Of a stretch of DNA of 64,000 nt, positions 11,709 to 25,316 are shown piece after piece (position 1 is the first letter of the stretch; every line of letters begins with the position of its first letter). The position numbers were made by a program, and so were the translations under genes. The notes beneath the pieces are model-generated. The model worked only from the letters and a program-made list of their open reading frames with translations, did no database searches and had not been told where the DNA came from. This stretch comes from Thermoplasmata archaeon (lineage in GTDB: Archaea; Thermoplasmatota; Thermoplasmata; Methanomassiliicoccales; Methanomethylophilaceae). The DNA lies in contig SUST01000001.1 in NCBI GenBank assembly GCA_015063285.1, forward strand, positions 124,001 to 188,000, in the 5' to 3' direction.

Positions 11709-12836
11709 GTGCTAGGATGGGAGTTCGACTCCATCGTGATCAGAGTCCATAACAATGAATATCGCAAACACAACGGAATTCCGAAAAAAGAATCGCGCAG
11801 AGAGAAACAGGCTCAGATATCGCCGCAGAATGTTAGGAAAAAGCAAAAAGCAAGACACCGCAGACGTGTGGACCTAGGGATTCCTAAAAGAAGGATCCCC
11901 GACCACCCCATCATTCTGAAAAAGAAACCTCAGCCGGAGGCAAAGATAACGGAGGTCGAGTTCCGCAGAAGCATCTCCTATTTCGAAGAACTCATCGGCT
12001 TCGATAGCGAACTGTTGGGCAGCGATACAGATCCCGTTATCATCGAAATGCATAAGAAGGCAGTGTCTGGCGATGCCTACTATCAATATCGTATGGGTGC
12101 ATACTATGAAGAGAACCGCATCTCATGCACAAAGATGGTATATTGGTATGCAGAGTCCGCCCTGAACGGTTGCAGATTTGCTGAAGATGCCCTCGAGAGA
12201 GTATTTTGGTCGGATGATGGCGAAAGCATCGACGACACGGTTGAAAAACTGGAGTCGGAATCGAAAAGAGGGTGCTTCCAATCAATGGTAAAGCTAGCGG
12301 AGATCTGCTCATCAGAATTCTATCATTACTATGACCTGTCCAAGGCAAGATTGTTGTATTGGGAAGCATCGAAACTCGACGTATGCGCCTTCAGATACCT
12401 GGCCTTGGAGTATGTCCTTTCAGGGAAACGTATCGTAGGGATGGATCTGATCAAGAAATCATTAGACGGATGGAACCCTCTGGAAGGACAGTATCTGATG
12501 GGCATCATCCAATACTATCATCCGGCAGATTCCTTTGATCAAGAATTCGGATAGAACCGCCTGAAGAGAAGCGGTAGAGAAGGTTACGTCCCTTCACTGC
12601 TGGCGCTGGGAGACATATTCGCCAAATGTGATAATGAAGATAATCTCGCTATCGCTATTGGATACTATACTGAAGCAGCAGAAAGAGGGGATATGAGAGC
12701 CATGTGCAGACTGATCGGCATATACGAGAATAAGGGCTGTATGGAAAAGGTCGATATGTGGAAGAACAAACTCCATGAAGCAGACTCCGAAATGTCGAAT
12801 TATGAATGGAAGCACTATGCACTGACGAGATTATGA
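11709..12836 (+). CDS. Sel1-repeat protein with in-frame TAG
   Basis: The frame from about GTG 11709 encodes a basic N-terminal region (residues 15-75, many Arg/Lys) and then Sel1-type helical repeats such as AVSGDAYYQYRMGAYYEEN. A TAG stands at 12552-12554 (codon 282). The same frame then continues for 93 codons to TGA 12836 and holds a further clear repeat, YYTEAAERGDMRAMCRLIG. Sel1 repeats form helical scaffolds for protein binding. The start is uncertain. Read with TAG as sense, the protein has 375 residues; read as stop, it loses its last two repeats. Confidence 0.75.
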
Positions 12837-23557: not shown

Positions 23558-23693
23558 AAGATTCTCCTAGTCCTTCAAGGACATTTTTACGGGAACGGCC
23601 TTAGATTGACGCTGCGGCACGTGTCCCCGAGGAGTTGAATCATATTGAATAATAAGAAACAGTGGTAGAAGGTAGAACTAATGTCTAGGCTTT

Positions 23694-23714
23694 GAGGAAA
23701 CCCTCGGTTTCCTC
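23694..23714. ncRNA. Right-end hairpin, possible guide (omega) RNA region
   Basis: GAGGAAACC, loop CTC and GGTTTCCTC form a perfect 9-bp stem 34 nt past the extended tnpB stop. TnpB elements encode a guide RNA that overlaps the 3' end of tnpB and runs to the right end, so the RNA should include this hairpin and end near 23677. Confidence 0.45.
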
Positions 23715-23747
23715 TATGTGATCGCAGGTCTCCCTGCTCTCCATCCA

Positions 23748-24905
23748 TCAGCTCAGTGACTGAACACCTTGCATGCCCAAGGTGAGGATGTTGCATGCAG
23801 CGTTCTAATCGCGGTCGACATCCAGACCGCAATGCGGGCATTGGTGCCTGCGGACCGAGAGGTCCTTTGGCACCATAATCCCGCATTTTGAACACTGTTG
23901 AGACGTGTACGCCGGATCCACCTTCACCACCTGGATACCAGCCTCTGCCGCTTTGTATCCCAGTGTGAAGATGAATTTGCTCCAACCAGCATCCCTGTAG
24001 GACTTCCTCATCCCCTTGGACCTGCTCCTATCGGCGAGCTCCTTGGTCTGAAGATCCTCCATGATTATCATATCGTAATTGTCCAGTAGGCTGTTCACTA
24101 TCGCGTGGATATATCCCCTGTTAACATTGTTCAGCCTCTCGAAGGCATGGAACAGCCTCTGGCGGTACCTCTCCCTCTCCTTCGAGCCTTTCTCGAATTT
24201 CGACATCTTCCTGAGGATCTTCGATACCTGCCTTTCCGCTTGTATGTAATTCTTCCTGTTCGGGTATGTAGTGCCCTCGGAGGTCACCACGATGTTCCTC
24301 AGACCGAGGTCTATGCCTATGGGCCTGGAGGGCTCTGTAGAGGTCTGGATGGTCATCCCACTTTTGTCCTTGCCATCCATCTCGAAGGTCACAGCGGCCT
24401 CCCAGTGGTAGTTGGGTCCAGCACCCTTCCTAATGATGGTGCATGTCTTCATAGTACCGTCCATCTTGCGGTATCCTCTGATCCTCACATCCATCTTCCA
24501 CGGGCTCAGCCTGATGTGATTAGAAGATAGTTTGAAACCTTTCTGAGTATAGGTGAACGAATCGTACCTCTTCCATGATCTGAACCTCGGGAAGCCGGCA
24601 TGCTCCGGGTCCTCCTTCACACGCCTGAAGAACCCGTCGAAGGTCCTGCTCAGACGGAAACAGACATCGCATAACACCTGTGAGTACACCGTCTTCAGCT
24701 TCGGATTGTTTTGCTTCATCTCCGGAAGGAGTTTCTCCAGATCATATGCCGAGGGGTGCTTCCCTCCTTCCTTATGCGTCTCGATACAATGCTCCAGCAA
24801 AATATTGTAGAGGTCATGGCAGACATATAGACAATCATTGAGCTGGCGCTCCTGCTCCCTGTTGGGATACAACCTTACGATCATAGTCCTCATCGTCCTG
24901 TCCAT
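23748..24905 (-). CDS. tnpB: TnpB RNA-guided nuclease with in-frame TAG
   Basis: From ATG 24905 the frame gives a normal TnpB: RuvC-I GIDLGLRNIVV (D199), RuvC-II IIMEDL (E284), zinc finger CSKCG/CPHCG (C338, C341, C356, C359), RuvC-III DVDRD (residues 362-366). TAG (23805-23807) follows directly, then NAACNILTLGMQGVQSLS and TGA 23748. DRDxNAAxNI is the conserved TnpB C-terminal motif, so the TAG fills the variable x right after the catalytic Asp. Stopping there would remove the NAAxNI helix. TnpB cuts DNA next to a motif using a guide RNA from its own 3' region. Confidence 0.9.
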
Positions 24906-25316
24906 GGGATGCCTCCATGATATACACCGTACGATTAGTATAAGAAGCTACGAAGGGGGTCACCGAAAGTGCAACAGAAAAAGCACCTACCCAGATATCC
25001 TTTTTCCACTTTCGGTTTCGGTGTCTAGGGTTCTTAGAAAGTTCTGTTAAATCATCGATTTTAACGTTAAACCGAGGGTTTCCTCAATGCTAATGTCTAC
25101 TAACTAGGCCAGCATTTTAAAATGGACGAAAAGGTCCATTCATGCAGAGAAACGGTCCTTTCTGATAGGAATCGAAATGTCTCGTCCTTGGATTTCACGT
25201 TCTTTTTCTTTGTGTGCGACCGAATACATCGAGCTCAGAATATCTAGTCGATATTTTCCAAAGTTTTTTGAATAATATCGACCACACATAATCTATAAAC
25301 AGAGGGGGTCAACCTC

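Follow-up and report, generated by a model that had tools for sequence, protein, structure and literature searches.

An in-frame TAG codon beside the RuvC-III catalytic aspartate of a mobile TnpB nuclease in pyrrolysine-using archaea is very likely read as an amino acid

The proteins for which pyrrolysine is best known are the methylamine methyltransferases. Conserved amber codons in mobile-element genes are already known from Methanosarcina, where the members of a transposase family keep an amber codon in frame (PMC2933860, a review; the family is also listed in PMC3639795). In Methanomethylophilus alvus, which belongs to the same order as the archaeon studied here, TAG is seldom used as a stop codon and several pyrrolysine (Pyl) proteins have been predicted (PMC4153887). 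Among TnpB proteins, the RNA-guided nuclease of ISDra2 provides the closest reference; its residues D191 and E278 have been named as catalytic, and its guide RNA (reRNA) is formed by the 3' end of tnpB together with the right end of the element (PMC8612924). In a functional screen of ISDra2 TnpB, stop codons before residue 376 were depleted, and such stops inactivate the protein (PMC11844463). A search for literature that names TnpB and pyrrolysine together, with subscription journals mostly outside its reach, returned one genome paper in which each is mentioned once, and an earlier description of a pyrrolysine TnpB may exist elsewhere.

The window, the whole 64,000-nucleotide stretch analysed here, contains a tnpB gene of 385 codons (23748–24905, minus strand) that has a TnpB-like fold and is complete only with a TAG taken as an amino acid. 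This TAG is codon 367 (23805–23807, minus strand), the sole in-frame TAG of the gene, and it lies between the codon for Asp366, directly 5' of it, and that for the invariant Asn368; it aligns with Glu362 of ISDra2 TnpB. After the TAG the frame stays open for 18 codons up to a TGA, and the C terminus reads ...CGLDVDRD-O-NAACNILTLGMQGVQSLS-TGA. A sequence-only reading of this DNA, which had placed a TAG between DRD and NAACNI of the gene, was exact in both coordinates and reading, and it was also right that the RuvC-III motif is complete only with the TAG read through. In the read-through protein, the Pfam families PF01385, PF07282 and PF12323 (OrfB_IS605, Cas12f1-like TNB and N-terminal HTH) all score above their curated cut-offs. 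The catalytic triad is intact: the codons for the RuvC-I Asp199 (24309–24311), the RuvC-II Glu283 (24057–24059) and the RuvC-III Asp366 (23808–23810), all on the minus strand, specify residues that align with D191, E278 and D361 of ISDra2 TnpB, the last of which we take to be the third catalytic residue of that protein. The D-E-D triad is invariant among 28 sequences, and the zinc-ribbon cysteines are kept. The model of the protein made with 28 aligned sequences (mean pLDDT 84.7) has a predicted helix at residues 365–384, beginning at the motif, and its best structure matches are the TnpB structures 8h1j, 8iaz and 8exa.

The host lineage comprises gut-type methanogens in which the stop codon TAG is read as the rare amino acid pyrrolysine. 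In the host genome (1.79 Mb, 96.7% complete), a contig end removes pylT and most of pylS and leaves only the C-terminal part of the latter; after this fragment come intact open frames that we read, on operon order and sequence, as pylB, pylC and pylD. A query with the M. alvus tRNA-Pyl had no match in the host genome, a null result that is uninformative because the contig end cuts the pyl locus; the same query matched all three of the relatives tried that carry the element. The tRNA-Pyl(CUA) gene pylT lies directly upstream of pylS in the genomes G079, G081 and G087, and pylS is present in all four element-carrying genomes. The host genes for the trimethylamine and monomethylamine methyltransferases, MttB and MtmB, contain an in-frame TAG. 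The host is very probably a pyrrolysine user, as the sequence-only reading had implied, and so are the other carriers. In a 464-kb sample of the host genome, 326 of the 366 called genes end in TGA and 40 in TAA, and 18 have an in-frame TAG inside, few of which resemble terminators. The gene caller took TAG as a sense codon, so these stop fractions are approximate, and to that approximation TAG is almost never used as a gene end by the host.

Several other open frames with internal TAG codons were noticed. On the plus strand of the window, a 322-codon frame at 11868–12836 with TAG at codon 229 and no Pfam match is a candidate Pyl protein, in which a repeat-like sequence seems to go on past the TAG, and a Sel1-repeat protein (PF08238; 45702–46361) with TAG at codon 25 either has a later true start or is a Pyl protein. 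A magnesium/cobalt-chelatase-like gene (L219:2556-4436) has two in-frame TAGs; ∼309 codons precede the first of them and 311 follow the second.

All three complete copies of the element in the host genome (the window copy C1, C11 and C20, which are 84% identical) have TAG at codon 367; a fourth copy, C5, ends at a contig end before this codon. The same codon is TAG in G079 and G081, for which a genome search gives 65% identity, and in G087, where two copies at contig ends have it. These genomes represent three other species of the genus, which with the host makes four carrier species. In 147 genomes of the order, a stop-like codon was found within the motif in seven instances, all of them TAG and none TAA or TGA, and the same pattern with TGG was found in none. 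The comparison of relatives at codon 367 that the sequence-only reading had put forward as a check gave TAG in all copies of the element that extend to this codon, in four species. Elsewhere in public genomes, the matches listed for the same pattern include at least 115 with TGG (Trp) and at least two with TAG, and none with TAA or TGA; the two TAG matches listed are the G079 record and a lone Anabaena copy. The latter (L052:13-42, Anabaena azotica) is a single TnpB motif with TAG at a contig start; many cyanobacterial TnpBs have TGG (Trp) there, and this TAG is probably a nonsense mutation. When 390 genomes of the phylum were sampled, the TnpB matches outside the order had lone TGA or TAA interruptions and no TAG. 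Neither the motif with any of the three stop codons (TAG, TAA, TGA) nor a relative of the protein was found in viral contigs.

The TAG copies included in the tree form one clade (support 100/99), with sister sequences that have Lys (AAG, G037) and Leu (CTC, G114) at this position. The presence of TAG throughout one TnpB clade is most simply explained by one change to TAG followed by inheritance. Fourfold sites of the window copy are only 42–47% identical to those of the G079 and G081 copies, so that a genuine stop codon had ample time to turn into TAA or TGA; by the branch lengths of the tree, the clade has accumulated over one substitution per site while retaining TAG. NAACNIL is in frame in every copy, and the TGA is reached by all except the G079 copy, which has a frameshift just 3' of the motif. 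The TAG is therefore not a chance nonsense mutation and is inherited within one clade. That each TAG arose independently, as a pseudogene mutation or a sequencing error, has a negligible probability: other TnpBs of the phylum do contain lone stops, as noted above, but here the same codon recurs in independent contigs and species of a single clade with the frame otherwise open, and this agreement led us to reject both decay and sequencing error. The aligned proteins contain only two other TAGs, at residue 271 in L041 and at residue 187 in the C20 copy (L007, G000:C20:175-1323), where the C11 and C5 copies have Gln. In a second, distant TnpB (L010, G000:C1:234840-236078; 32% identity), a TAG occupies another place in the protein and the residue at the motif position is Leu.

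The TAG also lies within the presumed scaffold of the element's omega-RNA (23688–23846, minus strand), which comprises the 3' end of tnpB and the right end of the element and is delimited by nucleotide conservation and a folded consensus. Over the last ∼160 nt of the element, TAG included, identity to the distant G079 copy is 0.88–0.92, as compared with ∼0.7 elsewhere in the gene. The segment has a stable consensus fold with few covarying pairs, and an Rfam search of the element gave no match. By analogy with the ISDra2 reRNA (PMC8612924), a 16-nt guide is presumed to derive from the flanking DNA at the right end (23672–23687, minus strand). The 18 codons after the TAG belong to this conserved, presumed omega-RNA as well, so that their conservation may reflect more than selection on the protein, and RNA constraint could help to keep the TAG and the codons that follow. 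The strong nucleotide-level conservation of the 3' end would also suit a TAG that is a real terminator, in which case the product would be a 366-residue TnpB without the end of the RuvC domain that binds DNA under RNA guidance but is dead as a nuclease, and what lies beyond the TAG would be kept as omega-RNA only. TnpB-derived nuclease-dead repressors are known, which counts in favor of such a product. We nevertheless consider it highly unlikely, because the full triad and the zinc-ribbon cysteines are kept, NAACNIL is in frame in every copy and leads to the TGA in all but the frameshifted one, TAG is hardly a stop in the host genome, the codon is never TAA or TGA, and the element is present in several copies and seems to have moved recently.

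The position of the TAG just before the last RuvC helix, within the omega-RNA segment, and its conservation in four species would agree as well with a programmed switch, in which the efficiency of TAG decoding varies and the supply of pyrrolysine, and hence methylamine availability, sets the ratio of full-length to truncated product. Such a switch would also set ribosome traffic over the omega-RNA and so tie the activity of the element to host physiology. This is unlikely, since TAG so seldom serves as a stop that its decoding seems to be constitutive and efficient, the argument also made for M. alvus (PMC4153887), and no regulatory element was identified.

Decoding as pyrrolysine would place a non-natural residue beside an active-site Asp, as the sequence-only reading had pointed out. 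A need for a special residue there is not supported by the comparison of homologues. In TnpBs of the order, residue 367 is V, I, L, R, K, H, F, Q or D, and the homologous residue is Trp in many other TnpBs and Glu362 in ISDra2 TnpB; few positions of the motif vary more. Because it varies in this way beside the invariant D366 and N368, pyrrolysine looks tolerated and not catalytic, and its side chain is probably one of several that this slot accepts. The retention of TAG over the long clade history could be taken to mean that pyrrolysine was selected for its chemistry beside the catalytic Asp, altering cleavage activity or specificity, but the range of residues accepted at this position makes that quite unlikely, and omega-RNA constraint and simple descent account for the retention. 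What appears to matter is the polypeptide beyond residue 367: given the depletion of stops before residue 376 in ISDra2, termination at residue 366 should abolish nuclease activity, and a TnpB product ending at DRD should be a dead nuclease.

The whole element, which carries tnpB only, spans 1403 bp (23688–25090, minus strand), with boundaries derived from copies that have different flanks. It is bounded by 22-nt terminal inverted repeats (TIRs), one at the right end (23689–23710), which is also a 3'-terminal hairpin of the presumed omega-RNA, and one at the left end (25069–25090), the two being 95% complementary. Outside these lies a 9-bp target duplication, TAATGTCTA on the plus strand in the right copy (23679–23687) and identical in the left copy (25091–25099), with equivalents at other copies of the element. 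The host genome contains at least six copies, many of them at contig ends. Target duplications of 8–9 bp were found at six insertions, four of which were inferred by pairing contig ends; the two flanks match at 9/9 positions for the window copy and 7/9 for C11, and, for the paired contig ends, at 9/9 for C28/C20 and C5/C27, 8/9 for C14/C2 and at least 8/8 for C18/C86 of G087. Directly 5' of the duplicated target in the window is TTAG (25100–25103, minus strand), a candidate transposon-adjacent motif of the form TTNN. TT is present at one fixed offset upstream of the duplication in seven of eight left flanks, against a TT background of 0.053, although the offset was chosen by inspection and the raw count somewhat overstates the significance. 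In the empty site, the TT motif would be followed directly by the flank that would serve as the guide, an arrangement that fits the adjacent motif of a TnpB.

The marker of the IS200/IS605 family, the Y1 (HUH) transposase TnpA, is not in the 1.4-kb element, and a search of the host genome at its 96.7% completeness for the Y1 transposase (PF01797) gave no match, with positive controls. IS4-type DDE (PF01609) and IS256-type (PF00872) transposases were not found in the host genome either, and TIR-like sequences in relatives, for example G085 (L193), revealed no autonomous partner. The element, which is multicopy and apparently recently mobile, is therefore set apart from canonical IS605 elements by its TIRs, its target duplications and a genome without a match to the Y1 transposase, and is not a standard element of the IS605 type, the label that the sequence-only reading used for its TnpB relatives. 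Its unusual ends suggest that TnpB may ride elements moved by a mechanism other than Y1 transposition.

The explanation that we strongly favor is that the TAG is decoded as pyrrolysine in the RNA-guided nuclease of a tnpB-only element and that the full-length product needs this decoding; judged from sequence comparison, readthrough and the dependence of full-length TnpB on it are very likely. On this explanation, the codon after the RuvC-III Asp would have changed to TAG once and then been inherited in the clade, kept by descent and by the overlapping omega-RNA. In Methanomassiliicoccales hosts, where TAG is a rare sense codon, ribosomes would insert pyrrolysine and yield the full 385-residue nuclease. 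In hosts without TAG decoding, translation would stop at Asp366, the RuvC helix that follows would be absent and the nuclease should be inactive. The nuclease probably cuts the empty donor site (TTNN plus flank), as other TnpBs do, and repair would then restore the element. As an outcome, the element would depend on amber-decoding hosts, and its confinement to pyrrolysine users is a reasonable inference with which the presence of pylS in all four carriers is consistent. More tentatively, and with less than even confidence, we propose a nuclease family obligately dependent on an expanded code, carried on a TIR and target-duplication element that is moved by a transposase other than Y1 TnpA, with code status acting as a host-range barrier. 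If this is true, the genetic code of the host would itself limit the range of a mobile element. A pyrrolysine codon fixed across species beside a catalytic residue of a mobile RNA-guided nuclease provides a natural nuclease whose activity should hinge on amber decoding, and it makes the confinement of a mobile element to its hosts by code expansion directly testable.

The nearest described systems each share part of this arrangement. ISDra2 TnpB (PDB 8bf8 and 8exa; PMC8612924) has the same fold, the same catalytic triad, an adjacent motif that starts with TT and the reRNA placement presumed here, but it has Glu362 where the window tnpB has TAG, and ISDra2 moves by Y1 TnpA without target duplication. 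Canonical IS200/IS605 elements and the tnpB-only IS1341-type elements have in common with the window element TnpB, a presumed right-end omega-RNA and a hairpin near the end; IS200/IS605 elements lack the terminal inverted repeats and target duplications (PMC7290912, PMC8612924), both of which are present here. The Methanosarcina transposase family likewise combines a mobile-element gene, a conserved in-frame TAG and pyrrolysine-using hosts, but its product is given as a transposase with kinship to an insertion element of Bacillus and not as an RNA-guided nuclease. Cas1 and the other predicted Pyl proteins of M. alvus (PMC4153887) likewise show that, within the order, amber codons have become fixed in ordinary genes, which is attributed to efficient decoding; they are predicted in one of the three species compared, whereas the tnpB TAG belongs to a mobile family, is shared by four species and stands beside a catalytic residue.
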